A stretch of 64,000 bases of DNA, taken from assembly GCF_009687865.1 (NCBI RefSeq), contig NZ_BLAE01000005.1:202299-266298 (forward strand). Direction: 5' to 3'. The translations under genes and the position numbers were made by a program. Origin of the DNA: Acrocarpospora macrocephala (GTDB lineage Bacteria > Actinomycetota > Actinomycetes > Streptosporangiales > Streptosporangiaceae). Below are positions 27,651 to 44,664 of the stretch, piece by piece; the stretch's first letter is position 1, and each line of letters starts with the position of its first letter. The notes beneath the pieces are model-generated. The model was not told where the DNA came from and did no database searches. It saw nothing but the letters and a program-made list of their open reading frames with translations.

Positions 27651-28397
27651 TTACCCTGAATTCGAAGTGGAAGGATCATCCTCGTTGCTCGCGCGTAGCT
27701 TTTCGTAGAGGCGCGATATGTAGCGCATGTAGTCTTCGTCGATGCCGACGGTGCGCACATAACCATCGAAGTAGATCGACTCGACGAGCCGGAGGTAACT
27801 CAGTTTTGTCATGGCGGCCAGCGCATCGGGGTTCGACGCGATGTACAGGTCCGCGGGCAGTTCTGTTGTCCCCTCCATCGCCTTATAGTCCATGTCCGGC
27901 TGGACATAGTCGATGGGCGCTTTCCGAGTGGCCAGGCCGCGCATCCGGGCGTATTCAGTGAACAGTCGTGCCTTCGCGCGTGATCGGGCTGACTCGGCGA
28001 CGGGCGGTGCGATCTCGAACATCAGCATGAACGGGGATTTCAGGGTCTTCGCGTGGTCGTGCCAGGCGGTTTCCAGCATCTCCCAGCTGACGCTTCCGGT
28101 AGACGGCAGCGCACCCAGGTAGTCGATGAGAGCGTAGTTGCGATCGACGCTGGTGAGCAGATTCAGGAAGCCGACCACACGGTCGCCCTGCACCGCGAGA
28201 TAGAGGGAGTAATCGATCGGCTGTGGGTCGCCTTCGCGCGAGAAGTCTGCAAGCCGCCGGTCGGCGGCATGGCCGAGGATAATCGTCGGCGACATTTGCT
28301 GATTCGCTGGTATGAGGCGACGGAAGAGCTCACAGAATTGGTCCGCATACTGTCGGGTGGCGCGATCTCCGTACCGCACGACGCGCTGCTCGTTCAT
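27651..28397 (-). CDS. GNAT-like protein of unknown function
   Basis: A 248-residue protein. SLYLAVQGDRVVGFLNLLT resembles the beta4 strand and acetyl-CoA-contact region of GNAT acyltransferases, and the length is compatible with an N-acyltransferase. The clear R/QxxGxG/A loop is missing. Its codon use and G+C are visibly lower than its neighbours (AGT, TTC-AAC and ATA codons, AT-rich 3' end), a sign of transfer. The ATG lies 1 bp after the stop of a tiny upstream ORF (28399), so translation may be coupled. No function is assigned. Confidence 0.55.
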   Translation of the reverse strand: MNEQRVVRYGDRATRQYADQFCELFRRLIPANQQMSPTIILGHAADRRLADFSREGDPQPIDYSLYLAVQGDRVVGFLNLLTSVDRNYALIDYLGALPSTGSVSWEMLETAWHDHAKTLKSPFMLMFEIAPPVAESARSRAKARLFTEYARMRGLATRKAPIDYVQPDMDYKAMEGTTELPADLYIASNPDALAAMTKLSYLRLVESIYFDGYVRTVGIDEDYMRYISRLYEKLRASNEDDPSTSNSG

Positions 28398-28776: not shown

Positions 28777-28805
28777 GAAATTTCCTGCTATTATTCCATG
28801 ACAAT

Positions 28806-28821
28806 CTATTATCGATAATAG
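28806..28821. promoter_or_regulatory. Perfect 16-bp palindrome, GntR operator candidate 1
   Basis: CTATTATCGATAATAG is a perfect palindrome 13 bp upstream of the SDR start, next to its SD. The ATCGAT core recurs in the promoter regions at 33488 and 40643. Confidence 0.65.
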
Positions 28822-28834
28822 GGGAGGGAATGTG

Positions 28835-29533
28835 ATGGATCGTAAGGTGGCGATCGTTACGGCGGCGAGCGCCGGGATCGGGAAGGCCATCGCGCAGGAG
28901 CTGGCGGCTGACCACGAGCTGGTGGTCATGTCGCGGTCGGATGCGATCTCGGACGTGGCACGCGAGCTTGGCGCCTGTGCCGTGCGCGGCGACGTCCGCT
29001 CGGGGGACGACCTTGACCGGCTCGTGACGACGGCGCTCGACCGCTACGGACGCGTCGATGCCGTGGCCATCAACACGGGACACCCGCCCAAGGGCAAGTT
29101 GCTCGATCTCACGGAAGACGATTGGCGCGCCGGCTACGACCTGGTGCTGAGCTCGGTGATGTCGCTGGTGAAGCTCGTCACTCCGGTCTTCGTCCGCCAG
29201 GGGACGGGGAGCGTGGTCGCGGTGGCCTCGTACGCGGCGCGCACCCCAGAGCCGACGATGCCGGTCTCATCCGTCTTCCGGTCGGCGCTGCAAGCGTGGA
29301 TCAAGCTCTACGCGACCGAGTACGGGCCTGCGGGGGTGCGCGCGAACACCATTCTGCCGGGGTACATCGCCACCCACCCGCAGGACCCGGCTCGCGTGGC
29401 GACGATCCCGGCCGGGCGTTACGGGCATCCGGCGGAGATCGGGAAGCTGGCGGCCTTCCTGCTGTCGGACGGCGCCGGATTCGTGTCCGGACAGGCGATC
29501 CTCGCCGACGGCGGGATGGTCACCGCAATCTGA
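28835..29533 (+). CDS. Divergent SDR with non-canonical catalytic residues
   Basis: A 232-residue SDR with TAASAGIG as cofactor loop. The active-site segment is ASYAARTPEPTMPVSSVFRSALQAW: where YxxxK is expected it reads SxxxR, and NNAG is replaced by INTG. This pattern exists in a known SDR subgroup with conserved VSSVFR and NTILPG, so it may still be an enzyme with altered chemistry. GGAGG 7 nt upstream supports ATG 28835 over the overlapping GTG. Operator 1 precedes it and a hairpin terminator follows. Confidence 0.8.
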   Translation: MDRKVAIVTAASAGIGKAIAQELAADHELVVMSRSDAISDVARELGACAVRGDVRSGDDLDRLVTTALDRYGRVDAVAINTGHPPKGKLLDLTEDDWRAGYDLVLSSVMSLVKLVTPVFVRQGTGSVVAVASYAARTPEPTMPVSSVFRSALQAWIKLYATEYGPAGVRANTILPGYIATHPQDPARVATIPAGRYGHPAEIGKLAAFLLSDGAGFVSGQAILADGGMVTAI

Positions 29534-29537
29534 ACGC

Positions 29538-29572
29538 CGGTGCCCGGCCCGATTTCCTCGGGCCGGGCACCG
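29538..29572. terminator. Bidirectional terminator, 14-bp stem
   Basis: GGTGCCCGGCCCG and its complement flank a 7-nt loop (ATTTCCT), with one extra C-G pair outside. It is placed between the convergent SDR (stop 29533) and M24 genes (stop 29579). Confidence 0.88.
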
Positions 29573-29578
29573 CCCCCC

Positions 29579-30613
29579 TCACGGCTCAAGGCTGAGACTG
29601 TGCGAGGTCAGCAGGCTGGCCCCGCCCTCCTCGATCAGCATCAGGTGCTCGACCCTGACCCCGTAGCCGTCAAGGTACGCACCAGGCTCCAAGGCGAGGA
29701 CCGCGCCCGCTTGAAGCACGACCTTCGACGCCGGGTCGAACAGCGGAAAGTCCTGTTGCTTGTAGCCGATGCCGTGGCCGGTCATATGGGGATATTCATA
29801 TCCTCCCTCGGCCATCACCCCCCGTACGGCGCGATCGACATCACCCACGACGGCTCCTGGCCGCAGCATCGAGATGCCGTGATCCAGGGCCCGCATCGCG
29901 TGATCGTGCAGACGCCGCACCTCGCGAGGCACAGGTCCGAGGACGGTCGTCGAGCACGAGTCGCCCCAGATCCCGTCCAGCAGCGGCGCGAAGTCGAAGA
30001 TGACCGTCTCGCCGGGCCGCACGCGGCGTCCGGTGGGAGGAAGGCCGACCTGCTCGCAACGATCGCCGAACATCAGATCGACGATCGCGGCGGCGGGGGC
30101 CGTATGAGCGGTCAGCTCCGCGTTGACGGCGTCGAACAGCTCCAGCTCGGAGATCCCGGACCGGATGTGGCGGCGGAGCGCGTCCTGCCCCCGGCTCGCG
30201 TACCGGGCGGCGGCGCGGATCCGCTCCAGGTCAGCCGGCCCATGGGTGAGCCGGCGCCCCGCCAGAAAGGCGGCGACGTCGACGAGGGGGTGCCCGCGCA
30301 GCACGGGTTCCAGGGCCGCGGGCAGCGCCGTGGTTTCGACGGCGATCACGCGGCCGGCGCGAAGACCGGCCTCGTCGAGTAGCTCCTGAGCGAGAGCCCG
30401 GGTGCCCGGACGGATCAGCCGCACGGTCTCGTCGTCGGCGAGGGCGACCGTGCCGGCCTCCACGTCCCGACCGCCGATCCAGCGCACGCTGGCGTGATCG
30501 GTGGCGATGAGGACGTGCGCGCCCACCTCCCGGAGATGTTCGCGCACGTCTTCATGCCGCCCGGCGAGCACGCGCTCCCATTCGTCCCGCGGCGCGGGCG
30601 AGCCGGCGATCAT
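29579..30613 (-). CDS. M24-family (Xaa-Pro peptidase/creatinase-fold) hydrolase
   Basis: A 344-residue pita-bread-fold protein. DFAPLLDGIWGDSCSTTVLG supplies two metal Asp (D-x-x-x... and GD), MTGHGIGYKQQDFP the metal His, LEPGAYLDGYGVRVEHLMLI two Glu positions. The metal site looks complete, so it should be a hydrolase (X-Pro dipeptidase-, ectoine hydrolase- or creatinase-like) acting on an amide. The ATG overlaps the SDR stop by 4 bp. It is the last gene of the 33444-29579 operon. Confidence 0.85.
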   Translation of the reverse strand: MIAGSPAPRDEWERVLAGRHEDVREHLREVGAHVLIATDHASVRWIGGRDVEAGTVALADDETVRLIRPGTRALAQELLDEAGLRAGRVIAVETTALPAALEPVLRGHPLVDVAAFLAGRRLTHGPADLERIRAAARYASRGQDALRRHIRSGISELELFDAVNAELTAHTAPAAAIVDLMFGDRCEQVGLPPTGRRVRPGETVIFDFAPLLDGIWGDSCSTTVLGPVPREVRRLHDHAMRALDHGISMLRPGAVVGDVDRAVRGVMAEGGYEYPHMTGHGIGYKQQDFPLFDPASKVVLQAGAVLALEPGAYLDGYGVRVEHLMLIEEGGASLLTSHSLSLEP

Positions 30614-31401
30614 ACGGTCAGGACCCCCGCGGCGAGCACGCCGCCGTCGCAGGTCAGGTTGGCGCCGGTGATGTAGCCGGCCTCGGGTCCGAGCAGCCAC
30701 AGCGCGGCGCGCGCGGGCTCCTCGGGGTCGGCCAGGCGGCCGAAGGGCACCTCCTCGTTGATCTTCACCCGGGTGCTCGCCAGGTCCTCCGGCGCGACGT
30801 TGGCCCACATCAGCTCGGTCTCGGTCGCGCCCGGGGTCACCGCGTTGACGCGGATGCCCGCGCCCGCGTACTCGACGGAGAGCGCCCGGACGAGGGAGCT
30901 GACGCCCCCCTTGGAGGCCGCGTACGCCGCCGCGCCACCCACGCGCGGGGCGACGAAGCTCCACGGCGACGAGATGCAGACGATCGCGCCGGGGTGGCCA
31001 GACTCGCGGAAGGATCGGATGGCCGCACGGCAGGTCAGGAACGTGCCGGTGAGGTTGGTCTCGACCACCTTGTGCCAGGTCTCCATCGACAGCTCGTGGC
31101 TGGGGGCCCCGGTGTCGATGCCGGCACTGCAGATCGCACCGGTGACCGGGCCGAGCGCGGCCGACGCGCGGGCGAAGGCCGCCTCGACGTCGCCTTCGAC
31201 GCGCACGTCGCACTCGGCGAAGAGCAGGTCGCCCGCCTCCTCGGCGGCCGACCACTCGCCGGTCGGCGCGCTCGGCGGGGCGAGCCCGAGTGCCGCCACT
31301 CGCGCGCCGCCGCGCAGCGCGAGAATGGCGGCGGCCTGACCGATTCCGCTACTGGCACCGGTGATGACGACGACGCTCCGCCGGTTGGAATCGGCTGGCA
31401 T
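30610..31401 (-). CDS. SDR family oxidoreductase
   Basis: A 263-residue SDR with TGASSGIG, an unusual ICSAGID in place of NNAG, and catalytic ISSPWSFVAPRVGGAAAYAASK (Ser ... Tyr-x-x-x-Lys, quoted around the loop). The insert GEWSAAEEAG after the second strand is atypical. AAAGGG 6 nt upstream supports ATG 31401. It probably oxidises a hydroxyl group in the sugar-acid-like pathway. Confidence 0.83.
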   Translation of the reverse strand: MPADSNRRSVVVITGASSGIGQAAAILALRGGARVAALGLAPPSAPTGEWSAAEEAGDLLFAECDVRVEGDVEAAFARASAALGPVTGAICSAGIDTGAPSHELSMETWHKVVETNLTGTFLTCRAAIRSFRESGHPGAIVCISSPWSFVAPRVGGAAAYAASKGGVSSLVRALSVEYAGAGIRVNAVTPGATETELMWANVAPEDLASTRVKINEEVPFGRLADPEEPARAALWLLGPEAGYITGANLTCDGGVLAAGVLTV

Positions 31402-31412
31402 GCTCGGCCCTT

Positions 31413-32537
31413 TCACAGATCGTCGACGCTCTTGCAGTCGTATTCGGCCAGGGTGGCCCGCTTCATGGCGTCCCAGTCGATCTCCAGGCCGATGCCGTGG
31501 CCGTCGGGGGCGCGCACCTCGCCGTTCTCGTCGCAGCGGATCGGGTTCACGATCCCGTACTCGTAGGCGTCGTACGGGATGGGAAGCTCGAAGTAGCTGC
31601 TGACGGGCGACGCCAGGCCCACATGGATGGCGGCCCCCTGGATCAGGGAGTAGCCCCAGCTCTGCTGCTCGGCGGGCAGGCCGAGCGCCTCGGCGATGGC
31701 CACCATCTTGCGGGCCTGGGTGATGCCCCCGCTCATCGAGGCGTCGAAGCGCACCGCGTCCCAGGGGAAGCGCGAGACGTGGTGGTAGATCTCCTGCAGG
31801 TCCATCAGCCACAGGCCGTGCGGGACGATCGGGATCTTGATGCGCTCGCGCAGCCGGAAGTAGCTGGCCAGGTCGTAGTCGCGGAAGGGCGCCTCGAACC
31901 ACCGGAAGCCCATCTCCTCCAGGGCCCGCCCGACCTTGACCGCGCCGTTGAAGTCGTAGCGGTTCTCCGCGTCGTGCATGAAGGTGACGGTGTCGCCGAA
32001 TTTCTTGTGCACCGTCGTGAGCATTTCAAGATCTTTTTCGGGAACGTTCCAGGCGTGGAATTTGATCGCCGTGAAGCCGTCGGCGATCATCTCCTCGACG
32101 TGGTCGAGGTAGTCGGCCGTGGTCTCCAGCTCCGCGGTCGAGGCATACGCGGGGATCGAGTCCCGCGAGCCGCCGAGCATCTTGTACAGCGGGAGGCGGG
32201 CCTTCTTGGCGGCCAGGTCCCACAGGGCGATGTCGATGGCCGCGATGGCGCCGGGCGCCGTCGGCGTGATGTACGTGTGCAGGTCGCGCCAGCGCGCCTC
32301 GATGTTGGACGGGTCCTTGCCGATGATGTACTGGCCGAGCGTGCGGATCGACTCGAAGGTGGCGAAGTCGTACTCCCCCGAGCCGTAGCTCTGCGTGCAG
32401 CCGACGCCCACGCCACCGTCGGAGTCGAAGACCTGGACGATCGTCATCAGCATGAACTGCGGGGGCATGCTCGCCCATGTCGTACGCGGGATGTCGGGGC
32501 CGACCCCGATCACGTGGACCCGCTCGATGGTCGCCAT
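31413..32537 (-). CDS. Mandelate racemase/muconate lactonizing (enolase superfamily) enzyme 1
   Basis: A 374-residue enolase-superfamily protein. Lys159-x-His161 (AIKFHAW) ends the second barrel strand, Asp189 (MHDAENRYD) and the Glu of WFEAPFRD are metal ligands, and RFDASMSGGI follows. It abstracts an alpha-proton from a carboxylate, giving dehydration or racemisation. K-x-H instead of K-x-K makes the subgroup uncertain. It starts 1 bp after the DHDPS-family gene's stop, a coupling that suggests dehydratase then aldolase. Confidence 0.87.
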   Translation of the reverse strand: MATIERVHVIGVGPDIPRTTWASMPPQFMLMTIVQVFDSDGGVGVGCTQSYGSGEYDFATFESIRTLGQYIIGKDPSNIEARWRDLHTYITPTAPGAIAAIDIALWDLAAKKARLPLYKMLGGSRDSIPAYASTAELETTADYLDHVEEMIADGFTAIKFHAWNVPEKDLEMLTTVHKKFGDTVTFMHDAENRYDFNGAVKVGRALEEMGFRWFEAPFRDYDLASYFRLRERIKIPIVPHGLWLMDLQEIYHHVSRFPWDAVRFDASMSGGITQARKMVAIAEALGLPAEQQSWGYSLIQGAAIHVGLASPVSSYFELPIPYDAYEYGIVNPIRCDENGEVRAPDGHGIGLEIDWDAMKRATLAEYDCKSVDDL

Positions 32538-32538
32538 G

Positions 32539-33444
32539 TCAGCCCTTGACCGCTACGCCGGAGGACCGCAGCACGTCGGCGAGGCGCGCCTTGAAGTCCG
32601 CGGGGGCGGGCAGCAGCGGGAGCCGGGGGTTGCCGACCGGCAGGCCCACGACCTCGCAGCCGGCCTTGACCGCGCTCTGGTAGCCCAGCTCCCCCACGGT
32701 CGTCATGATCGGCCACAGCCGCTTCCACACCGCCTGGGCCGCCGGGAGGTCCTGCTTCTTGATGATCGCGTCGTACAGCTCGACCGCGAGGCCGGGGAAG
32801 AAATTGGCGGCGCCCCAGACCGAGGCCCGCGCGCCCGAGGTCAGCCCGAAGAAGGTGAGCTTGTCCTCGCCGTTGAACACCTTGAGCTTGTCGGGCATCT
32901 CCTGGAACAGCTCGCCCAGCTGTACGGCGTTGGCGCTACTGTCCTTGGTGAACTTGATGTTCTCGATGGCGGCGAGCTCTTCGAACTGCTCGCGGGTCAG
33001 CGGCAGGCCGGTGGCCGCGGGCATGTGGTAGTACATGATCGGAATGTTGATGGCGTCGGAGAGTGCCCGGAAGTGCGCCAGCACCTCCGGCCAGGTCACC
33101 GGCTCGTAGTACGGCGGGATGACCATCACGGCCGCGGCGCCGTTCCGCTCGGCGTGCCGGCTCAGGTCGATCGTCTCCTTGGTGGTCAGGGCACCGGTAT
33201 GCGGAACAACCGGCACCGCGCCGTCGACGGCCGCGGAGACGACTTCGGTGACGTGCTTGCGCTCATCGGTGGTCATGTTCATGAACTCACCGGTGCTGCC
33301 GCAGGGGATCACACCGCCGACGCCGGCGTCGAGCTGGAACTCGACAACCTGCCTGAGCACGGCATCGTCGACGGATTCTCCATCCGCGGTGAAGGGGGTC
33401 ACGAGCGCGGGGAAGATGCCTTCGAAGATCGGATCGCTGGACAC
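32539..33444 (-). CDS. DHDPS-family aldolase/dehydratase
   Basis: A 301-residue DapA/NanA-family TIM barrel. GSTGE (49-53) binds the alpha-keto carboxylate, Tyr138/139 (MYYHMPAATG) and Schiff-base Lys167 (KFTKDSS) are in place. With two enolase-superfamily enzymes and no lysine genes nearby, it is more likely a keto-deoxy sugar-acid aldolase or dehydratase than DapA. First gene of the operon; divergent from the GntR gene, with operator 2 between them. Confidence 0.88.
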   Translation of the reverse strand: MSSDPIFEGIFPALVTPFTADGESVDDAVLRQVVEFQLDAGVGGVIPCGSTGEFMNMTTDERKHVTEVVSAAVDGAVPVVPHTGALTTKETIDLSRHAERNGAAAVMVIPPYYEPVTWPEVLAHFRALSDAINIPIMYYHMPAATGLPLTREQFEELAAIENIKFTKDSSANAVQLGELFQEMPDKLKVFNGEDKLTFFGLTSGARASVWGAANFFPGLAVELYDAIIKKQDLPAAQAVWKRLWPIMTTVGELGYQSAVKAGCEVVGLPVGNPRLPLLPAPADFKARLADVLRSSGVAVKG

Positions 33445-33487
33445 GAGGGCTCCAGGTGTTAGAAGGGCACGTAGTCGATGATAGGAT

Positions 33488-33506
33488 TATAGACAATCGA
33501 TGATTA
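33488..33506. promoter_or_regulatory. GntR operator candidate 2
   Basis: TAGACAATCGATGATTA, centred on TCGA at 33497-33500, lies between the divergent DHDPS-family (33444) and GntR (33574) genes. It resembles operators 1 and 3 and would serve both autoregulation and operon control. Confidence 0.6.
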
Positions 33507-33573
33507 GTCAACCCTAGGCGAGCCAGTGATGATCAGCCACCATTGGACGAAGAATCGGAAACGGAAGGTTTAA

Positions 33574-34284
33574 ATGGCGACCGAGATCAGTCGGCCAGCG
33601 GGCGAGGCGTTGCGCCCGGCTTCGCGTAGAGCGCATATCCCGGTCGCCTCGCGGCCGCAGCAGATCGTCGACCTGCTGCGTGAAGAGATCGTCTCCGGGA
33701 CCTTGAAAGCAGGTCAGCAGCTCAAGCAGGACGAGCTTCGCGAAGACTTCGGTGTCAGTCCCGGACCGGTCCGGGAAGCGCTGCGCGTCCTGGAGAACGA
33801 GGGCTTGGTGGAGCACTTCCCGAACAGGGGCGTGTTCGTCGCCGACATCTCCGCGACCGACCTGATCGGGGTGCTGATCCCGGTTCGCCTGGCGATCGAG
33901 ATGTTCGCGGTGACCGCCGCCGCGCCGGCGCTGCGCGCCGGTGGCATCGCCGACCTGGAGAACCTGATCGAGCAGATGCGCGTCGCCGCGGAACGCAACG
34001 ACCGCTTGACGATCAACGAGCTGGACGTGCGCTTCCACGAGACCATCGTCCGTGCGTCCGCGTCGAGCCACGCGTTGCAGTTGTGGCGTAGTGTCCAGCC
34101 GCGCATAAGGGCACAGATCTACGCCCTCGCGCCGCGCCATCACGCGGCCGATGACATCGTCGCCGAACACCAGCAGATCGTCGACGCGATTCGCGACGGC
34201 GACGACGAGAAGCTGAAGGCCGTCATCACCGAGCACGTCCAGATCACTCCCCTGCGCCTGCTCGGGGCAGGGGACGCCGGCTGA
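33574..34284 (+). CDS. GntR-family regulator, FadR/FCD subgroup
   Basis: A 236-residue GntR regulator. N-terminal wHTH: IVSGTLKAGQQLKQDELRED, then FGVSPGPVREALRVLENEGLV. The C-terminal FCD helical domain carries the metal-ligand pattern Asp/His (DVRFHETIV), and further His (EHQQIVDAI). FCD regulators commonly sense sugar acids or other carboxylates, consistent with the enolase-superfamily operons on both sides. The ATG has GGAAGG 5 nt upstream. It ends at the hairpin at 34329. Confidence 0.9.
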   Translation: MATEISRPAGEALRPASRRAHIPVASRPQQIVDLLREEIVSGTLKAGQQLKQDELREDFGVSPGPVREALRVLENEGLVEHFPNRGVFVADISATDLIGVLIPVRLAIEMFAVTAAAPALRAGGIADLENLIEQMRVAAERNDRLTINELDVRFHETIVRASASSHALQLWRSVQPRIRAQIYALAPRHHAADDIVAEHQQIVDAIRDGDDEKLKAVITEHVQITPLRLLGAGDAG

Positions 34285-34328
34285 TTCCCACGCCCGCTTA
34301 AGCAAAGCCGGTCGGCCCGCCGCGCGAC

Positions 34329-34360
34329 CGCCCGGCCCACGGCAGGCCGCGGGCCGGGCG
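34329..34360. terminator. Hairpin terminator, 10-bp stem
   Basis: CGCCCGGCCC and GGGCCGGGCG flank a 12-nt loop, between the convergent GntR (stop 34284) and U32-like (stop 34381) genes. Confidence 0.75.
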
Positions 34361-34380
34361 ACTCCCAGGACGGCGCGGTG

Positions 34381-35307
34381 TCATGCCGGTACGGGCACGC
34401 CGTCTCGCTTGCCGTCGACCGCTGAGGGCGCCGCGTCGGGCCTGCCGCGCCACAGGTGTTCGAGCCCGGCCCGAGCCCGGGCGACCCGCGCTTTCGCCGA
34501 GGATGCGACCACGGCGGCCAGGTGTTCACCGGCGGGGTAGAAGGCCGGGGCGTTACGCAGGCCGAACTTCAGGTGGACGGGGGCGCCGATCCGGACGATC
34601 TCGGGGAGATCGTGGTAGCGCATGAAACCACCGAGGCCGTCCTGACCCTCGATGTACATGTCGAGCGCACCCCGCGTGAGCTGCCGGTACGCGGCCAGAT
34701 CGCCGAGGGTGGTGTCACTGGCGATGTTCAGCGAATGCGCCCCCGCCTGCTCCAGCGCGCGGGCGCCGAGCGGGTTGGCGATGCCCATCAGCGCCGACGC
34801 CTTGACGATCAGGTCGCTCGGCAGGTCGCCGGCGGCCTGCGCCTGACCGATGAGGGCGATGAGTCCCTCGTCGGCGACCAGGAGGCTGCGCAGCCCGGAA
34901 TCGACGGCGCGCTCAACGTCTTCCCAGGCGGCGCGCAGCGCGGCGACACCGATATGGCGGGCGCCGAAAATGCCGCCGTCCGCGGTCAGCGCCGACGCGG
35001 CGTTGCCGTCCCACGCGGCGCGCGGGCCGATGAACAGGCAGACCTCGACGTTGTGGTCGGCGCCGATGGCCACGTACTCGCGCAGCGTGTCGTCGGTGAG
35101 AACGGTGATGCCGCTGCCTTGCGAGATCCGGTGCAGCGGCACGCCCTGCCGCTCGCACTCCTGGATGACGATGCGGAACGCCTCGGTGCTTTCCACGCTC
35201 GGGATCTCGATTCGGTACTCACCGCCGTCGTCGAAACGGATCGGGGAGTCGGGCAGACGCCTGCTCGCGAGAGCGAGCTCGTCGAGCACGGAGGGGTAGG
35301 AGAACAT
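34381..35307 (-). CDS. Peptidase U32-like TIM-barrel protein, function unknown
   Basis: A 308-residue protein. RISQGSGITVLTDDTLREYV, EVCLFIGPRAAWDGNAAS and EQAGAHSLNIASDTT suggest a TIM barrel related to U32-type proteins; I do not recognise a catalytic motif. It lies 21 bp after the ABC ATPase gene and closes the operon running from 40629. A helper role in the imported compound's degradation is a guess from context only. Confidence 0.5.
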   Translation of the reverse strand: MFSYPSVLDELALASRRLPDSPIRFDDGGEYRIEIPSVESTEAFRIVIQECERQGVPLHRISQGSGITVLTDDTLREYVAIGADHNVEVCLFIGPRAAWDGNAASALTADGGIFGARHIGVAALRAAWEDVERAVDSGLRSLLVADEGLIALIGQAQAAGDLPSDLIVKASALMGIANPLGARALEQAGAHSLNIASDTTLGDLAAYRQLTRGALDMYIEGQDGLGGFMRYHDLPEIVRIGAPVHLKFGLRNAPAFYPAGEHLAAVVASSAKARVARARAGLEHLWRGRPDAAPSAVDGKRDGVPVPA

Positions 35308-35328
35308 CGGAGTCCCTTTCAGTGCGAG

Positions 35329-36093
35329 CTAGAGGACCTTGCCGAGGAAGTCGCGGACGCGCGCGTTCGCGGCGCCCCTGAAGACGTCCTCGACCGTGCC
35401 GTCCTCGACGATCCTGCCGGCGTCCATGAAGACGGCGCGGGCCGCGACCTCACGCGCGAATCCGATCTCGTGCGTGACGACGATCATCGTCATGCCCAGG
35501 TCGCTGAGCCTGCGCATCGTCTCCAGGACCTCGCTGACGAGTTCGGGATCGAGCGCGGAGGTCGGCTCGTCGAACAGCATCACCTTGGGCCGCATCGCCA
35601 GGGCGCGGGCGATCGCGACGCGCTGCTGCTGGCCGCCCGACAGTTGCTCGGGCATCGCGTGCGCCTTGTGGGCCATGCCCACGGTCTCCAGCAGTTCCTC
35701 GGCGCGGGACCTGGCCTGCTTGCGGTCCAGGCCGAGCACGCCGACCGGCGCCTCCATGACGTTCTGCAGCACGCTCATGTGGGTGAACAGGTTGAAGGAC
35801 TGGAACACCATGCCCACCTCGCGGCGCTGGCGGGCGATCTCACGCTTGGGCAGTTCGACCAGGTGATCACCGCGGTGCTCGTATCCCAGCAGTTCGCCGT
35901 CGATGAAGACCGCGCCGGACGTCGGTTTCTCCAGGTGGTTCAGGCAGCGCAGGAAGCTGGTCTTGCCCGCGCCGGACGGGCCCATGACGCAGACGGTCTG
36001 GCCACGCTGCACCTGCAGGGTGACGCCGTCGAGGACCAGATCGTCGCCGTATCTCTTGCTGAGATTGACGGCTTCGAGTACGACGTCGTTCAT
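35329..36093 (-). CDS. Polar amino acid-type ABC transporter ATPase (GlnQ-like)
   Basis: A 254-residue ATPase: [13 protein letters not shown] (Walker A, about 39), [15 protein letters not shown] (Q-loop), [15 protein letters not shown] (signature), [14 protein letters not shown] (Walker B) and VVTHEIGFA (H-loop). All catalytic elements are intact. The ATG overlaps the permease stop (ATGA). It powers the importer with 36090 and 37100. Confidence 0.93.
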
Positions 36094-37049
36094 GCCGGCT
36101 TCCCTCCCGCGACCACGCGCGCGGCGTTGCCGAGCTTGCGCGACCGGCCGCGTAGGCGACGTTCCAGCAAGGACTGCACCGCCGACAGGACGGTGACCAG
36201 CACGATGTACCACAAGGTCACGACCACCAGGAGGGGGACGACCTCGTAGGTCAGCTGGTAGATGGACTGCGCGGTGTACATCAGGTCGAACACCGCGATG
36301 AACGCGACAAGCGAGGTTCCCTTCAGCATGTTGATCGTGTCGTTGCCCAGCGGCGGGATCGCGATCCTGAGCGCCTGCGGCAGCACCACCCGCCGGTAGA
36401 TCCTGGCCCTGGTCATCCCCAGCGCGGTGCCGGCCTCCCATTGCCCCGTGGACACCGCGGTGATGGACGAGCGCAGGATCTCGGCCGAGTACGCCGCCTC
36501 ATTGAGCGCGAAGGCGAGGACCGCCGCCATGAAGGGCGAGATCAGCGTGTGGGTCTCGCCGGAGATGAGGGTGGGGCCGCCCGGGATGCCGATGGTCAGG
36601 GTGGGATAGAACAGCGACAGGTTGAAGGTGATGATGAGCAGCACCAGGACGGGTGTCGAGCGGAAGAACCAGACGAACAGCAGCGCCGCCTGACGCAGGG
36701 CCCAATTGCCCGACAATCGCATCAGCGCGACGATGACCGCCAGCACGAGGCCCACCGCCATCGAGGCCGCCGTCAAGCCGATCGTCACCCAGACCCCGTT
36801 GAGGATCCGGATGTCGAGCATGTAGCGGCCGACGATGTCCCACTGCAACGCCTCGTTGGAGACGACGCTCCACACGGCCAGGGCGAGGACCGCGAGCACC
36901 GCGACGGCGATGATCTCGCGCCGGTGGCCGCCACGTTGCCTGATCGGCAACCCGGCGAGTTCAACCATGCGCCCGTGCCTGGCTGGTTCGCTGGTCGGAC
37001 TGGGCACCGGGTCGTCCTCGGCCAAGGCGCTGGGATCACTCGGGCGCAT
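36090..37049 (-). CDS. Polar amino acid-type ABC transporter permease
   Basis: A 319-residue HisM/GlnP-type permease with a cytoplasmic N-terminus and about five membrane segments. [22 protein letters not shown] is the EAA loop contacting the ATPase; [11 protein letters not shown] is family-typical. Only one permease gene is present, so it probably forms a homodimer. The nearly parallel permease at 44661 shares layout. Confidence 0.92.
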
Positions 37050-37099
37050 GGTTGAACCTTCCTTATGGGGGATCGATGGCAGCGTCAGCGGATCAGGGG

Positions 37100-38005
37100 T
37101 TATTCGGCCGACGGAGGGGTGGGGTTGACCTGCGCAGAGTCCGCAATATTCTCACTTAGACCGTGTTTGGTGAGAATAGCCTCATATGTCCGGTCTTTCA
37201 TCAATGCGTCGATCCCCTGCTGGACCACGGTGATGAGCTTGGAACCCTTGGGGAAGGAGTAACCGGCGTACACCGACAGGATTGACGGGCCGGTCAGTTT
37301 CCACTCCTTGCCAAGCTGCTGCTTCTCCTGGCTCAGGAAGTAGCTCAACGTGGAGGTGGGGGCGACCGCGGCCTCCGCCCGCCCGCTGGCCACCGTCAGG
37401 TACCCCTCCGGCAGGGAGGGGAGCTGGACCAGCTTGATCGCCTGCTTCCCGGCGGCCGTACAGGCGTCGGACTTGCCCTGCAGGTACTCGGTCGCCTGAT
37501 CGCCGGTCTGGGAGGCGATCGTCCGGCCGCACAGGTCGTCGATCGTGGAGCCGAAGTCCGCCGTGGACTTCAGGGTGATGAAGTTGTACCCGTCGTTGAA
37601 CTGCGACAGCTGGTCGTAGATCTTCATCCGCTCGGTGGTGATGTTGGTCTGCGTGATGAAGTCGTACTTCTTCTGGTTGAGCCCGAGCAGCATGTTCTCG
37701 AAGGACACCTGCTCGATCTTGATGGGGATGCCCAGTTGCTTGGACAGCGCCGCGAGAAGTTCGGGGTCCTCACCCTGCGCGGTGCCGTCGGTGCCCTTGA
37801 AGGACAGGGGCGGCGCGTTGACCTGCACGGCGACCGTGATGCCGTCCCGGAACTCTTCGGGCACGCTCTGGTAGAGGGGAGCGGTGGTGTCTCCTCCGGA
37901 GGCCGCGGAGGTTTCGGAGGCGGTGCCGGACGCTCCGCAGCCGGTGACGGCCAAGGCCAGCAGCGCGGCCGACGCCGCGAGGGAGAAGTAGGGCTTTTGG
38001 TTCAT
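37100..38005 (-). CDS. Amino acid-type ABC transporter substrate-binding lipoprotein
   Basis: A 301-residue SBP_bac_3 protein with lipobox VTGC (about 19-22). GITVAVQVNAPPLSFKGTD and LAALSKQLGIPIKIEQVSFENMLLGL follow the polar amino acid binder pattern. GGAG 5 nt before the ATG fixes the start and rejects longer frames. Its ligand may be a carboxylate- or amine-bearing sugar acid derivative, given the amine oxidase upstream. Confidence 0.9.
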   Translation of the reverse strand: MNQKPYFSLAASAALLALAVTGCGASGTASETSAASGGDTTAPLYQSVPEEFRDGITVAVQVNAPPLSFKGTDGTAQGEDPELLAALSKQLGIPIKIEQVSFENMLLGLNQKKYDFITQTNITTERMKIYDQLSQFNDGYNFITLKSTADFGSTIDDLCGRTIASQTGDQATEYLQGKSDACTAAGKQAIKLVQLPSLPEGYLTVASGRAEAAVAPTSTLSYFLSQEKQQLGKEWKLTGPSILSVYAGYSFPKGSKLITVVQQGIDALMKDRTYEAILTKHGLSENIADSAQVNPTPPSAE

Positions 38006-38093
38006 GTGCTCTCCATATGAGGGGTGGCCCCCGAATGTGGTTGGTCGCGCGACGCGGAGGTCACGCAGCCGGCCTGGACATCGGCCGGCTCGC

Positions 38094-39491
38094 CTACTGG
38101 CCTCCTCTCCCGCTGGCGACCTCGGCGGATCGCAGATTTTCCGAGACCCGCAGGACCGCCCGGAGGGAGGACCGGGCGGCCTGCTCCATTCCGCTGAGCG
38201 GGTCGAAATAGTCGCCCGCGAGCGCGATGCGGCCGTGGTCGAAGCCACGCTCGAGGGCCGGCTGGAACGCGGCGCGGCCTGGCGCGGCGTAGATCGTCCC
38301 CAGGGGCCAGCGCTGCACCACCGTCTCGGTGATCTTGCCGCGGAGCTGCGGCACCAGTTCGAGCACCGAGCGCAGGAAGGTGCGCTCGATCACCTCGTCG
38401 CTCTCGGCCATCAGCTCGGCGGCGCGCGGGCCGCCGCGGTAGCACATCAGGCTGCCACCGCTCTTGCGCTCCCCTTCACGGGTCACCTGGGCGTGGTTGA
38501 ACAGGAAGTCGATCTCATGGCCGGGTGTCGTCACCGCGTAGACGTCGTCGATCGGCAGCGGCCCGGACTCTGAGGTGAAGATCGCCATGCTGAGGAACGC
38601 TCCATGGGTGACGTGGCGCAGCGCCTCGTCCAGGGGCGGCGGGACGTCGTCGATGATGTCCCGCGCGATGTGGGCGGGCGTCGCGACGATGACCGACTGG
38701 GCGGTAACGGTCTCGTCGAGGAACCGCACCTCGACGTGATCGCCCTGGTCCGTGACCCGCTCGACGGGGGCGCCGACCCGGATGTGGTCGCCGAGCCGGG
38801 CGTGTAGCGCGTGGACGACCTCCTCCGTCCCCCCGATCACGACCCGCGCGGTGGCGCCCGGGGCGTCCTTGGGCCCCATCACGTGCGCGCAGCACAGCAG
38901 CGCGGTGCCGCTGGAGACCTCGTAGGAGTCGGCGGCGGCGCGCCGGGCGATGCAGTCGAAGATCGATTCGACCCGGCCGCGGAGGGGGCCGAGGTATTCC
39001 TCGAACGTCTGGTCGTTGCGGAACTCGACGAGCCGGTGGCGCTGCTTCACCTCGTCCGCGGGGGTCTGCGGCTGATGATCCTCGATCCGGTTGACCTGCC
39101 TGACGCCGAGCGCGAGTTTGAGGCCCGCCTTGATCATGGAGGCGCGCTCGCGCAGGGTGAGCGGGAGGACGAAGGGCAGCATTTCCACCCGAGCAGGGTC
39201 GACGATCCTCGCACCCAACCCCATGCCCGTGACCGATCCCTTGACCTGGCGGACATCCAGGCCGAGCTCGATCGCCAGCTGGCCCATGTGGGTGTCGGTG
39301 TGCGGAAACACATGAGCTCCGACGTTGACCCAGTAGTCGCCGCGGCGTACGGACTTGATGCGCCCGCCGACTCGCTCGTCCGCCTCGAGGATCAAGATCT
39401 TGCGATCGCGCAGCCGCCAGGCCGAGAAGAGGCCGGCGATGCCGCCGCCCACGATGACGACGTCGTAGTCGGTCACAGGGGAGTTGCTCAT
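38094..39491 (-). CDS. FAD-dependent amine oxidase-like protein
   Basis: A 465-residue flavoprotein of the amine oxidase/phytoene desaturase-like fold: VVIVGGGIAGLFSAWRL (FAD ADP-binding, about 11-27), LEADERVGGRIKSV, and a C-terminal IALAGDYFDPLSGMEQAARS that contacts FAD. It may oxidise an amine or desaturate a substrate. The ATG at 39491 gives the family N-terminus just before the FAD motif; the longer frame overlaps the neighbouring gene. It lies 16 bp after the enolase-superfamily gene. Confidence 0.85.
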   Translation of the reverse strand: MSNSPVTDYDVVIVGGGIAGLFSAWRLRDRKILILEADERVGGRIKSVRRGDYWVNVGAHVFPHTDTHMGQLAIELGLDVRQVKGSVTGMGLGARIVDPARVEMLPFVLPLTLRERASMIKAGLKLALGVRQVNRIEDHQPQTPADEVKQRHRLVEFRNDQTFEEYLGPLRGRVESIFDCIARRAAADSYEVSSGTALLCCAHVMGPKDAPGATARVVIGGTEEVVHALHARLGDHIRVGAPVERVTDQGDHVEVRFLDETVTAQSVIVATPAHIARDIIDDVPPPLDEALRHVTHGAFLSMAIFTSESGPLPIDDVYAVTTPGHEIDFLFNHAQVTREGERKSGGSLMCYRGGPRAAELMAESDEVIERTFLRSVLELVPQLRGKITETVVQRWPLGTIYAAPGRAAFQPALERGFDHGRIALAGDYFDPLSGMEQAARSSLRAVLRVSENLRSAEVASGRGGQ

Positions 39492-39507
39492 GGTGTAGCG
39501 CCCGCTT

Positions 39508-40629
39508 TCAGATGGTGACGAGGTACTTCTCGATCGTGGCGTCATCCAGCTCCACGCCGAGTCCCGGCTCGGCCGGCACGTAGGCCGTGCCGCCCTCGAT
39601 GCGCGGGGGGTTGCGCACGAGAGACTTGCTCAGGTCGGTTTCCTCGACGCAGTACTCGAGCATGAGCGCGTTGGGGATCGACGCCAGCAGGTGCAGCGAC
39701 GCGGCGGTGTTGATGTCGGTGGTGAAGTTGTGGTTGCACACCGGCAGCCCGCGGTCGGCGGCGAGCCGGGCGATCCGCACCGCCTCGGTCAGCCCCGTCC
39801 GGGTGACGTCGATCTGGACGACGTCCACCCGGCCCTGGTCCATCAGGCGCAGGTAACCCTCGGCGGTGCACTCCTGCTCCCCCGCCGCGATCCGCATGTC
39901 CGTCGCGTCGCTCAGCAACGCGTAGCCGCGCAGATCTCCTGGCATCAACGGCTCCTCAAGCCAGAACGGCTGGTACTGCTCGAAACGGCGGGCCCGGCTC
40001 AGCGCGGTCTTGGCGTCCCAGGCCAGGCCGGCGTCGACCATGATGTCGGCCGTGCCGGCGCCCTTCCTGATCGCCGCGACCAGCGCCTCGTCCAGGTCAG
40101 GGTCGGGGCCCATGGGTTCCCAGCCGAACTTCATCGCGGTGTATCCGGCATCGGCGGCGGCGGCCGCCCGTTCCGCGTTCTCCTTCGGCGTGAAGGAGAA
40201 CATGTGGCTGGCGTAGACCCGGTGCTCGGTGGAATAGCCGCCGCCGAGCAATTCGTAGACCGGCCGCTGAAGGATCTTGCCCTTCAGGTCCCACAGCGCG
40301 AGATCCACTCCGGCCATGGCGTGGATGACCGCTCCGCCCCGGCCATAGTAAATGGTGCCGCGGAGCATCTTGTCCCACAGCCTGCTGATCTCCAGCGGGT
40401 TCTCCCCCACCAGCAGGTGCCGCAAGCCGCTCACCATCTCGTGGGAGTACGGCGCCTCAATGATCGACTTGACCACCAGCGGGCTCGAATCGACCTCGCC
40501 GATTCCGGTGATACCCGCGTTGGTGGAAATGCGGACGAGAAGGGTGTCCTGCGAGCTGTCGGTCCGCTCCCGGATCGACGGCATCTTCAGGTAATGAGCC
40601 TCGACATCGATGATCTCAAAATCTGACAT
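39508..40629 (-). CDS. Mandelate racemase/muconate lactonizing (enolase superfamily) enzyme 2
   Basis: A 373-residue enolase-superfamily protein only distantly similar to the one at 31413. Lys167-x-Gly169 (AMKFGWEPMG) replaces the K-x-K motif; metal ligands are in VDAGLAWD, WLEEPL and AAGEQE; CNHNF is near the end of the barrel. One catalytic base appears to be missing or supplied elsewhere. It is the first gene of the operon that also carries amine oxidase, ABC importer and U32-like genes, and lies under operator 3. Confidence 0.87.
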   Translation of the reverse strand: MSDFEIIDVEAHYLKMPSIRERTDSSQDTLLVRISTNAGITGIGEVDSSPLVVKSIIEAPYSHEMVSGLRHLLVGENPLEISRLWDKMLRGTIYYGRGGAVIHAMAGVDLALWDLKGKILQRPVYELLGGGYSTEHRVYASHMFSFTPKENAERAAAAADAGYTAMKFGWEPMGPDPDLDEALVAAIRKGAGTADIMVDAGLAWDAKTALSRARRFEQYQPFWLEEPLMPGDLRGYALLSDATDMRIAAGEQECTAEGYLRLMDQGRVDVVQIDVTRTGLTEAVRIARLAADRGLPVCNHNFTTDINTAASLHLLASIPNALMLEYCVEETDLSKSLVRNPPRIEGGTAYVPAEPGLGVELDDATIEKYLVTI

Positions 40630-40642
40630 GGATAGTAGTCTG

Positions 40643-40658
40643 TAGATAATCGATAGAT
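40643..40658. promoter_or_regulatory. GntR operator candidate 3
   Basis: TAGATAATCGATAGAT, centred on TCGA at 40650-40653, lies in the 62-bp gap between the divergent enolase-superfamily (40629) and SDR (40692) genes. It matches the left arm of candidate 2 closely (TAGA-AATCGAT). Confidence 0.6.
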
Positions 40659-40691: not shown

Positions 40692-41459
40692 ATGAAACAT
40701 TCCGCCCGAACAGCCCTCGTCACCGGCGCAAACGGCGGAGTCGGCGCCGCGATCGCCCGCGCGCTCGCCGCGTCAGGACATCGGGTGGCCGTGCACTACG
40801 GGCACTCGGAGCGGGCCGCCCATCAGCTCGCCGGCGAGCTCGCCGGCGACGGCCACGCGGTCGTGGCGGGCGACCTCCGGGAGCAGGGCGCGGCCACGAA
40901 GATCGTCGATGACGCGGTTTCCCGTCTTGGGCGCATCGACGTACTGGTGAACAACGCGGGGGTGACGAGACGCACGCTCATCACCGAGCCGAGCCTCGCG
41001 CAGTGGCGAGCGGACTGGGAGGACGTCTTCGCGGTGAACCTGTTCGCGGCCGCCGACCTGGCCTGGGAGGTCGCCCGGCACCTGCGCGAGCGACCGGAGA
41101 CCGCCGCGGGCGGGCGGATCGTCAACGTCGGCTCCCGCGGGGCGTTCCGCGGGCAGGCGGACGCCATCGCCTACAGCGCGAGCAAGGCCGCGCTGCACGC
41201 GATGACGCACTCGCTCGCGATCGCGCTGGGCCCGTACGGCATAGCGGTCACCGCCGTCGCACCCGGCCTGGTGAAAACTCCGATGACAGCGTCGCTCATC
41301 GAGGACATGTCCGAGGAGGCGGTGAAAGCGGAGAGCCCGCTGGCCCGGCTGGCTGTCCCCGAAGACGTGGCCGCGGCGGTCGCCTGGCTCGCTTCTCCCG
41401 AGGCCGAGTGGGTCAGCGGGGCGGTCGTCGACGTCAACGGCGCCTCGTACACGCACTGA
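40692..41459 (+). CDS. SDR family oxidoreductase
   Basis: A 255-residue SDR: TGANGGVG, VNNAGV and VGSRGAFRGQADAIAYSASK (Ser, Tyr, Lys), ending VVDVNGASYTH. The second strand VHYGHSERAA suggests an NADPH preference. AAGGG precedes the ATG by about 10 nt. It is monocistronic and divergent from the enolase operon under a shared operator. Confidence 0.85.
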   Translation: MKHSARTALVTGANGGVGAAIARALAASGHRVAVHYGHSERAAHQLAGELAGDGHAVVAGDLREQGAATKIVDDAVSRLGRIDVLVNNAGVTRRTLITEPSLAQWRADWEDVFAVNLFAAADLAWEVARHLRERPETAAGGRIVNVGSRGAFRGQADAIAYSASKAALHAMTHSLAIALGPYGIAVTAVAPGLVKTPMTASLIEDMSEEAVKAESPLARLAVPEDVAAAVAWLASPEAEWVSGAVVDVNGASYTH

Positions 41460-42002: not shown

Positions 42003-42860
42003 TCATCGCGCCGCCGCCACCACGGCGATCGCCTTCGGGATGACGCCGAACCGGTGGAACAGGTCGGCCGCGAACTGCTGCTCGGCCAGGAATCGCCCGT
42101 CGACGGCGTGCACGCCCCAGTGCCGCGTGGCCAGCGCGGCACGCCACGTCTCCGCCGCGCCGCCGCGGCTGCTGCGCGAGAGCAGGGCGGCGACCTCGTC
42201 CAGGTGCGCCGCAGCCCATTCCTCAGTGGCGGCGACGGCGTCCACGAACGCGCGGGCCTCGGCGGGGTGCTCGCGCACCCAACTCCCCCGGCCGAAGAAC
42301 ACCGACCGGTTCTGCACGAGGTCCTGTGTCGGTGCGACGACGCGCACCTCGGCGAGCCGGCGCAGCCTGCTGTAGGCCGGGTCGACCACGAGCCAGCTGT
42401 CGGTGCCGGCGGCCAGGAAGTCCTCACCCTGGGCGGTCGCCTCGATGTCCACGATTGTCACGTCGTCCCAGGCCAGCCCGGCCCGGTCGACCGCGACGGC
42501 GAGGGCGTGCGTCTGCCAGGAGCCGACCGTGAAGGCGATGCTGCGGCCGCGCAGGTCGGCCAGGGTGCGGATGGGCGAGTCCGCCGGCACGACGATGCCA
42601 CCGGGGTCCGGGTGCGGCTCGGACGCGGCGAGGTAGACGACGTCCAGGTCCTGCGCCTGGGCCACGATCGGTGGCGTGGACCCCGTCGCGCCCACGTCGA
42701 TCACCCCGTCGACGAGCAGTCCGGTGGTACGGCGTCCGTCGTCGTAGCGGACGAACTGGACGTCTTGGGCTGCCCGCCGGAGCGGCTCCTGCAGGGCGTC
42801 GACGTGGCTCAGGATCCAGGTCGCCAGGTTGTTGGGGTGGGTGCCGATGATGATGCTCAC
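42003..42860 (-). CDS. SsuA/NMT1-like binding-protein-fold protein without signal peptide
   Basis: A 285-residue type 2 periplasmic-binding-protein fold, resembling sulfonate/nitrate binders (GVIDVGATGSTPPIVAQAQ, then SPIRTLADLRGRSIAFTVGS). It has no signal peptide or lipobox: the start (GTG at 42860, GGAGG 7 nt upstream, GTGA overlap with the previous stop) leads directly into IIIGTHPNN. It is therefore probably cytoplasmic, like its neighbour the DszB-like protein, and could be an enzyme or its partner rather than a transport component. Last gene of the operon. Confidence 0.75.
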   Translation of the reverse strand: MSIIIGTHPNNLATWILSHVDALQEPLRRAAQDVQFVRYDDGRRTTGLLVDGVIDVGATGSTPPIVAQAQDLDVVYLAASEPHPDPGGIVVPADSPIRTLADLRGRSIAFTVGSWQTHALAVAVDRAGLAWDDVTIVDIEATAQGEDFLAAGTDSWLVVDPAYSRLRRLAEVRVVAPTQDLVQNRSVFFGRGSWVREHPAEARAFVDAVAATEEWAAAHLDEVAALLSRSSRGGAAETWRAALATRHWGVHAVDGRFLAEQQFAADLFHRFGVIPKAIAVVAAAR

Positions 42861-43882
42861 GAGCTGACCTCCGTCGTCGTGTCCTGGGTGAGGTAGGCGT
42901 CCGATGCGGCGAGCGGCCCAGGGTCGATCCACTCGTCGATCGGGAAGTCGCGGGGAAGCACACCGTGGCGGAGCAGGAACCGTTTCTGGTCGTCGAGATG
43001 GCCGATCCAGTCCGGCCTGAGCTCGGGTTCGAGGCGGTGGTGCAGCGTGTCGCCGTACGCGCGGGCCACCCCGGCGCGGGTCGAGCCGGTCTCGGCCGCG
43101 ACGATCCGCGCGGTGTCCTCCGGATGTCCGGCGGCCCACCGCGCCGCCTCCCGCAGCGCCGCGAGGTACCGGGCGACGATGTCGGGCCGCCGGGTCGCGA
43201 GGTCCTCGCTGACCGTCAGCGTCCGGGGCGTCCCGTTGTTGACCTGGAGCCGCGGGTCCGCCGTACGGGTGAGGTCGTGCACGCACAGCAGGTCGTCGCG
43301 GGCCAGCACGTCGGCCCCGGGTGCGCCTTTGACGTAGGCGGCGTCGCCGAGGCCCGCGCGCAGCGCCGCCACGGTGGCGCCGTAGAAGCCGTCGGCGCCT
43401 TTGTCCTCCGTCTGCGGCAGCGGGGCGGGGGCGTCGACGAGTTCCACGTCCGCCAGGGAGAGGCCGGCGTCGCGCAGGGCGGCGTCGAACCCGCGCAGGG
43501 CCATGGCCCGGAAGAAGTCCACGCGGTCGCCGCCGTGGGTGGGCAGGATGAGCCGCCGGCCCGCCAGGTCCCCCGGGCCGGTGATCCCGCTGCCCCGGCG
43601 GGTGACGATCGCCTGCAGCTCGGGGACCCAGGTCAGGCCGACCAGGCGGGTGCGCTCGCCGCGGGACCGCGCCCACAGCGCCGGCACGTTGCCGCCCTCG
43701 CGGAACAGGGCCGGAAGGCGGTGGTCGAAATGCGCCTCCGCGGCCCCGGCCAGGCGCAGCGGGGCCACGGCCAGCCCGGCGGCGGAGAGCGACGCCGCCA
43801 GCCGCCCGGTGTCGAGCGCGATCCCGGACGCCGTCGGCACGGGGCACCGCGTGTACCAGACAGTGCTCACTGCGTCGGTCAT
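42857..43882 (-). CDS. DszB-like desulfinase candidate (binding-protein fold)
   Basis: A 341-residue protein that I align by eye to DszB, the 2'-hydroxybiphenyl-2-sulfinate desulfinase. YTRCPVPTA (Cys13) matches DszB's YSNCPVPNA, whose Cys27 is catalytic. HFDHRLPALFREGGN places His51 and Arg61 ten residues apart, exactly as His60 and Arg70 of DszB. RTRLVGLT and ITGPGDLAGRRL also correspond. No signal peptide is present. It would release sulfite from a sulfinate; the natural substrate is unknown, and no DszA/DszC monooxygenase is nearby. AAGGAG 5 nt before the ATG and ATGA overlap fix the start. It could instead be a binding protein that merely retains these residues. Confidence 0.7.
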   Translation of the reverse strand: MTDAVSTVWYTRCPVPTASGIALDTGRLAASLSAAGLAVAPLRLAGAAEAHFDHRLPALFREGGNVPALWARSRGERTRLVGLTWVPELQAIVTRRGSGITGPGDLAGRRLILPTHGGDRVDFFRAMALRGFDAALRDAGLSLADVELVDAPAPLPQTEDKGADGFYGATVAALRAGLGDAAYVKGAPGADVLARDDLLCVHDLTRTADPRLQVNNGTPRTLTVSEDLATRRPDIVARYLAALREAARWAAGHPEDTARIVAAETGSTRAGVARAYGDTLHHRLEPELRPDWIGHLDDQKRFLLRHGVLPRDFPIDEWIDPGPLAASDAYLTQDTTTEVSS

Positions 43883-44664
43883 CTCGGCTCCTTTGTCGTG
43901 AGGCGGCCCAGGAAGGCGTGGGTACGCGCGTGGCGGGGCGCGGTCAGGACGGACTCCGGCGGGCCGAGTTCGAGGATGCGGCCCTCGTCGACGAACGCGA
44001 CCCGGTCGGCGATGTCCCGGGCGAAGGCCAGCTCGTGGGTCACGATGAGCATCGTCATGCCACGACCCGCGAGGGTCTGGATGGTCTGCAGAACCTCGGC
44101 GACGAGTTCGGGATCCAGGGCGCTGGTCGGCTCGTCGAACAGCATGACCTTCGGCCGCATCGCCAGCGCCCGGGCGATCGCGACCCGTTGCTGCTGGCCG
44201 CCGGAGAGCTGGCGCGGATAGCTGTGCTCCCGGCCCGCGAGGCCGACCTGGGCCAGCAGCTCCCCCGCCCGCTCCGCCGCCTCGGCCCGGGACAGGCCGC
44301 GGACCGAGATCGGCGCTTCGACGATGTTCTCCAGGGCCGTGAGGTTCGGAAACAGGTTGAAGCTCTGGAACACCATGCCGACGTCGGCCCGCTGGCGGCG
44401 GATCCTGCCCTCGGGGAGGGCGCGCAGCCGGTGGCCGCCGGCGGGACGGTAGCCGATCAGCTCGCCGTCGATCTCGACGAATCCGGCGTCGGGCGCTTCG
44501 AGGTGGTTGACGCAGCGCAGCAGGGTGCTCTTGCCCGACCCTGAGGCGCCGATGAGGCAGATCACCTCGCCGCGCGCGACCTCCAGGTCGACTCCGCGCA
44601 GCACGGGCGTGCCGGCATAGCTTTTGTGCAGGTCGACCAGGCGGATCATGGGCTGCTCGCTCAT
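43879..44664 (-). CDS. Amino acid-type ABC transporter ATPase
   Basis: A 261-residue GlnQ-like ATPase with [57 protein letters not shown] and VTHELAFA all intact. I chose ATG 44664 (GGAGGA 4 nt upstream, ATGA overlap) over 44676. It is closely similar to the ATPase at 35329, as if the two importers share ancestry. Confidence 0.92.

Follow-up and report, generated by a model that had tools for sequence, protein, structure and literature searches.

Three intergenic sites in the window, the 64,000-nucleotide stretch of Acrocarpospora macrocephala DNA analyzed here, are very probably the operators of the FCD-type GntR regulator encoded at 33574–34284 (+ strand), whose ligand-free dimer would block three promoters until a carboxylate releases it. 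The computational analysis establishes the sites themselves, their conservation, their specificity for the locus and the association of the motif with the regulator. The predicted single regulon is well supported for the SDR gene at 28832, the DHDPS–enolase–SDR–M24 operon, the GntR gene itself and the enolase–oxidase–importer operon; the SDR gene at 40692 would belong to it less securely, on the basis of a shared 62-bp divergent gap.

A palindrome common to three promoters

A sequence-only reading had pointed to three strings: CTATTATCGATAATAG at 28806–28821, directly upstream of the SDR gene at 28832; TAGACAATCGATGATTA at 33490–33506, inside the 129-bp gap between the divergent DHDPS-family gene (33444, − strand) and the GntR gene (33574, + strand); and TAGATAATCGATAGAT at 40643–40658, inside the 62 bp that separate an enolase-superfamily gene (40629, − strand) from a divergent SDR gene (40692, + strand). 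All three are found where they were placed, and all are intergenic. The same reading had centered them on ATCGAT. This hexamer alone occurs 10 times in the window against 10.9 expected, which is chance level; the case therefore rests on a longer motif, and the feature common to the three sites is the palindrome GATTRTCKAYAATC rather than ATCGAT. The centering holds for the 28806 site, where the best 14-mer (TATTATCGATAATA at 28807) has ATCGAT at its middle, but not for the other two, where the best palindrome (GATTATAGACAATC at 33485 and GTCTGTAGATAATC at 40638) is centered 7 bp leftward. At these two sites ATCGAT sits where the palindrome meets a third, weaker half-site, and the TAGAYAATCGAT that had first drawn attention comprises the right-hand part of the palindrome and the beginning of that third box.

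Predicted operator 1 spans 28800–28820 (half-sites GACAATC/TATTATC/GATAATA; core palindrome 28807–28820) and lies 11 bp before the start codon of the SDR gene. Predicted operator 2 spans 33485–33505 (GATTATA/GACAATC/GATGATT; core 33485–33498), and predicted operator 3 spans 40631–40658 (GATAGTA/GTCTGTA/GATAATC/GATAGAT; core 40638–40651), the latter being the weakest of the three with two mismatches, both within one half-site. A standard promoter scan gave one promoter-like match each at sites 1 and 3, neither of them decisive, and recognized none at site 2. The operators lie close to or overlap gene start regions, an arrangement consistent with occlusion of the polymerase.

The motif accompanies the regulator across genera

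With an N-terminal GntR wHTH and a C-terminal FCD domain (Pfam GntR 2.4e-19 and FCD 8.4e-25, both above cut-off), the regulator belongs to the FadR (FCD) subfamily of the GntR family and is predicted to be an autoregulated repressor. Metal-binding FCD domains hold a metal/carboxylate site of the form DxxxH...H...H. The corresponding residues D151, H155, H199 and H221 (DxxxH/H/H) are invariant in four orthologues and align with the D/H residues of the solved FCD proteins 3fms and 3sxy; the regulator thus carries the residues of a metal-type FCD pocket and is predicted to bind metal.

Orthologues of the regulator, 35–53% identical, occur across many actinobacterial genera. Loci were gathered by the regulator gene, and the operator was sought directly upstream of it; it is present upstream of nearly all orthologous genes examined, in Mycolicibacterium (GATTATCTATAATC), Arthrobacter, Nakamurella, Glaciibacter, Cryobacterium (TTGACAGATTATCGATAATCTGTCAA), Nocardiopsis, Pseudonocardia (GATTATCGATAATC), Streptomyces (GATTGTCGACAAAG and CATTGTCGACAATC), Microbacterium, Nocardioidaceae (GATTGTCGACAATC) and one Chloroflexi MAG, with no match above threshold at three orthologue loci (L065, L075 and L077). 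The Streptomyces and Microbacterium loci carry a second copy at the adjoining enolase or importer promoter, a multi-site, autoregulated layout. An MR_MLE gene usually neighbors the orthologue, and an SDR or an importer of the polar-amino-acid type is frequent there; the regulator's gene row in Mycobacterium, Nakamurella and Cryobacterium includes an amidohydrolase as well. This phylogenetic footprinting supports the proposal, made from the window's sequence, that the locus forms one regulon under the FCD regulator at 33574.

A matrix built from 16 distinct sites in other genera, with none from the window's own genus, placed the three sites at the top of the 64-kb window, with scores of 25.9 (33485), 24.4 (28807) and 19.6 (40638). 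Overlapping registers of the same sites followed at 14.7 (40645), 13.6 (28800) and 8.8 (33492), and the best unrelated place reached 7.2. Since the first consensus had been picked by eye, a seed-free motif search was also run; it returned GATTGTCGACAATC with at most three mismatches in 17 of 19 upstream regions, compared with 7–8 of 19 in shuffled controls, and the refined matrix derived from it again ranked the same three window sites on top. Two simpler patterns were discarded. A consensus in the style of the sequence-only reading, TAGAYAATCGATNNAT, matched only sites 2 and 3 in the whole genome at up to one mismatch, the others lying near control level, and its failure at site 1 led to the better motif; the pattern GATTATCGATAATC with three mismatches was too loose, matching 100 places.

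Conservation and specificity of the sites

Site-level conservation within the genus could be followed in one sister species, Acrocarpospora pleiomorpha, in which the regulator is 95% identical and none of the three sites has been lost. Around site 1, the sister species has an invariant block of 25 nt (ATGACAATCTATTATCGATAATAGG) next to preceding sequence that has diverged. The counterpart of the divergent SDR at 40692 is truncated in A. pleiomorpha, with most of its sequence lost, and site 3 is kept all the same, which indicates that the conserved target is the importer operon and not this SDR. The regulator and the 31413 enolase are both present in two of five Acrocarpospora genomes and both missing from the other three, so that the locus has the distribution of an accessory unit.

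Within the 12.1-Mb genome, GATTRTMKAYAATC with at most two mismatches occurs at 67 places, the three sites included, and its sole exact match is site 2. By simple arithmetic, the 11.9-kb locus should hold 0.066 matches, against three found. Among the 50 of these 67 places that were listed, the window sites rank first, second and fifth by matrix. Eight top outside matches among the places listed were inspected: most fall within predicted ORFs, and a strong third half-site is absent from all eight, for which reasons we claim no distant regulon member, although a weak distant target may exist elsewhere in the genome. The sequence-only reading had named a motif common in unrelated promoters as an outcome that would speak against it; the eight outside genome matches inspected do not show that pattern.

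A third half-site in phase with the palindrome

Each of the three operators reads as consecutive half-sites of 7 bp. When 20 operators were compared, half-site scores outside the core were highest at offsets −7 and +14. The permutation test on the third half-site reached the floor of its 5,000 shuffles (p = 2e-4), whether or not the window was included. In FadR-subfamily operators, Suvorova et al. 2015 (PMC4494728) noted weaker extra boxes 7–12 nt from the center, whose role they did not settle. One tentative reading, which we regard as possible but do not favor, is that the operator is a phased 7-bp array on which at least two FCD dimers would sit in overlapping registers, in the manner of NanR but on inverted, 7-bp-spaced arms, with the number of half-sites setting the strength of control.

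Comparison with known operators

FadR-subfamily operators take the palindromic form NyGTM-N0-1-KACNy (PMC4494728). The orthologue consensus GATTGTCGACAATC fits the GTM-N0-1-KAC palindrome of that study, and the window sites are variants of it: most of their arms have AT instead of GT, with GATTGTCTATAATC (the reverse strand of 33485) retaining one GT arm. The likeness extends to the divergent, autoregulated layout and to the weaker extra half-site, which lies about 10.5 nt from the center here, within the 7–12 nt of the published operators; the Acrocarpospora box differs in keeping a strict 7-bp phase on either side. In a word search of the text of PMC4494728, neither the orthologous group nor the motif turned up, and a literature search with the motif returned only Pseudomonas aeruginosa PrpR as relevant.

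PrpR (PMC9765439) is likewise an autoregulated FCD repressor, and its site ATTGTCGACAAT shares its 12-bp core with the group's members in Streptomyces and Nocardioidaceae; PrpR controls the 2-methylcitrate operon, however, and such genes are absent from this locus. Escherichia coli NanR on (GGTATA)3 (PMC8012715) is also an FCD regulator acting on tandem short repeats, but there the repeats are direct and 6 bp long and are bound by three dimers through an N-terminal extension, whereas the Acrocarpospora half-sites are 7 bp long and have a clear inverted repeat as their core. An operator of the NanR type has two or more repeats in one direction, to which several dimers bind cooperatively; the Acrocarpospora operators show a significant third half-site in 7-bp phase. 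Site 1 contains an exact BioR-type box (TTATCGATAA; BioR box TTATMKATAA, PMC4494728), and both regulators are of the FadR subfamily. We rejected a BioR operator or regulon, as only site 1 matches the box and the annotated regulon genes (SDR, DHDPS, enolase superfamily, M24 and ABC importer) include no biotin gene; BioR regulates biotin genes and has been reported from some alpha-proteobacteria only.

Alternative explanations

One alternative concerns the register: ATCGAT would be the true dyad of every site, with the 33485 and 40638 registers as secondary. Site 1 and several relatives (Cryobacterium, Pseudonocardia and Nocardiopsis) are indeed ATCGAT-centered, and AGTCAA follows site 2 at the spacing that TGTCAA has in Cryobacterium and Glaciibacter. 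We nonetheless consider this unlikely: the ATCGAT register scores 8.8 against 25.9 for the leftward register at site 2 and 14.7 against 19.6 at site 3, the seed-free search concurs, and the Mycolicibacterium operators are centered on TCTATA. It is more improbable still that the sites serve another regulator, such as those of the MarR family (41474) or the HxlR family (26169), with the GntR gene a mere neighbor. Both genes do lie near the sites, and short palindromes are bound by other regulator families too, but in the loci of distant genera, gathered by the FCD orthologue, that gene is the common partner of the operator and lies directly downstream of it, and the motif has the FadR-subfamily shape (GTM-KAC; PMC4494728).

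That the sites are chance AT-rich promoter sequence, or a restriction/methylation-type ATCGAT devoid of a regulatory role, has a negligible probability even with ATCGAT alone at its expected frequency. Markov-simulated windows yielded one match of at least 19.5 in 3.84 Mb, three promoters with matches of at least 19.5 never occurred together in 3,000 promoter-composition trials, and a site is conserved beside diverged sequence; the matrix scan, the simulations and the seed-free search effectively refute this explanation.

Genes of the predicted regulon

Operator 1 precedes an SDR oxidoreductase gene (28832–29533, + strand; adh_short_C2 1e-44; GTG at 28832 or ATG at 28835). Under operator 2, the operon on the − strand begins with a DHDPS-family aldolase/lyase (32539–33444; DHDPS 2e-61), followed by an enolase-superfamily (MR_MLE) enzyme (31413–32537; MR_MLE_C 3e-37), whose nearest solved chain, 4jhm, is named only "mandelate racemase/MLE domain protein", an SDR oxidoreductase (30610–31401; Pfam) and, last, an M24 (aminopeptidase/prolidase-like) enzyme (29579–30613; Peptidase_M24 2e-37). 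The operon had been described as DHDPS/enolase/M24, and those members are present; the Pfam-supported SDR at 30610 had been left out, and an SDR related to it adjoins many regulator orthologues, with 33–52% matches in related loci.

Under operator 3, the importer operon on the − strand starts with an enolase-superfamily, dehydratase-like enzyme (39508–40629; MR_MLE_C 4e-62), for which galactonate/gluconate dehydratase models stay below their cut-offs and the nearest solved chain is 3sjn. It continues with a flavin amine oxidase-like protein (38094–39491; Amino_oxidase 2e-38), a family 3 solute-binding protein of the polar amino acid class (37100–38005; SBP_bac_3 4e-22), an ABC permease (36090–37049; BPD_transp_1 1.5e-24) and an ABC ATPase (35329–36093; ABC_tran 1e-36), and ends with a weakly U32-like protein (34381–35307; Peptidase_U32 0.038, below cut-off) with homologues in 69 of 394 genomes of the class. 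The divergent SDR (40692–41459, + strand; adh_short_C2 6e-51) starts 33 bp from operator 3. Two other regulator genes are found nearby, of the MarR family at 41474 and of the HxlR family at 26169.

Proposed mechanism and outlook

FCD-type regulators are mostly repressors released by ligand. We infer binding, repression rather than activation, and release by a carboxylate here as well. The ligand-free dimer would bind the palindrome GATTRTCKAYAATC at each promoter, with the adjacent weaker half-site 7 bp off probably lending extra affinity or accepting a second dimer. Bound in this way, it would block RNA polymerase at the promoter of the SDR at 28832 and at the divergent DHDPS-operon/gntR and importer-operon/SDR 40692 promoters. 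A carboxylate ligand, imported or made by the pathway, would then enter the metal-type FCD pocket and cause the DNA to be released. The label "sugar-acid-like" given to the locus is not borne out: no curated NCBIfam model for a named sugar-acid dehydratase or aldolase reached its cut-off among the locus enzymes, all matches falling below, and the importer is of the SBP_bac_3 class. The binding protein is of the polar-amino-acid class, and an amidohydrolase lies beside the regulator in relatives. A hydroxy or sugar acid is a possible ligand, and an amino- or amide-bearing acid equally so.

Overall, the locus can soundly be regarded as an ordinary example of well-known bacterial gene control. 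The analysis assigns a predicted operator and regulon to an actinobacterial group of FCD regulators for which the literature searched held no description. It also links a pair of enolase-superfamily enzymes, both with only generically named chains as their nearest solved structures, to one importer and one sensor, and this regulon membership narrows the search for their substrates. The phased extra half-site offers a concrete case in which to test the so far unexplained extra boxes of GntR operators and, if the array reading is true, would represent a widespread architecture in an uncharacterized actinobacterial regulator group.

Genes within and beside the predicted regulon

Beyond the MarR gene, the predicted regulon is adjoined by a second ABC system (42003-45590), comprising two NMT1/THI5-like binding proteins, an ATPase and a permease, at which no operator was found. 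Upstream of operator 1 (28800-28820), A. macrocephala carries a 248-aa reading frame (27651-28397) without a Pfam match; the sequence of this region differs in the sister species A. pleiomorpha. The counterpart of the SDR gene beside operator 3 (40692-41459) is truncated in A. pleiomorpha, where only its first ~130 bp are recognisable (L034:17200-17330); that species retains both an intact operator 3 and an intact importer operon. The last gene of that operon (34381-35307) matches no Pfam family above the cut-off, the U32-like match lying at E 0.038, and has homologues in 69 of the 394 genomes of the class.

Additional sites near regulator orthologues

In Glaciibacter and Cryobacterium (L048:9871-9905 and L083:7459-7493), the main operator is accompanied by a second, weaker palindrome 21 bp downstream, an offset of two helical turns that keeps the 7-bp phase of the main operator. 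At three Thermoleophilia-type loci (L078, L080 and L081) the sites occur in pairs, 18 bp apart. The longest phased array among the loci seen lies upstream of the FCD regulator in a Chloroflexi MAG (L051:9888-9915), where four half-sites follow in succession: GATTGTC AACAATC TACAATC TTCAATT.
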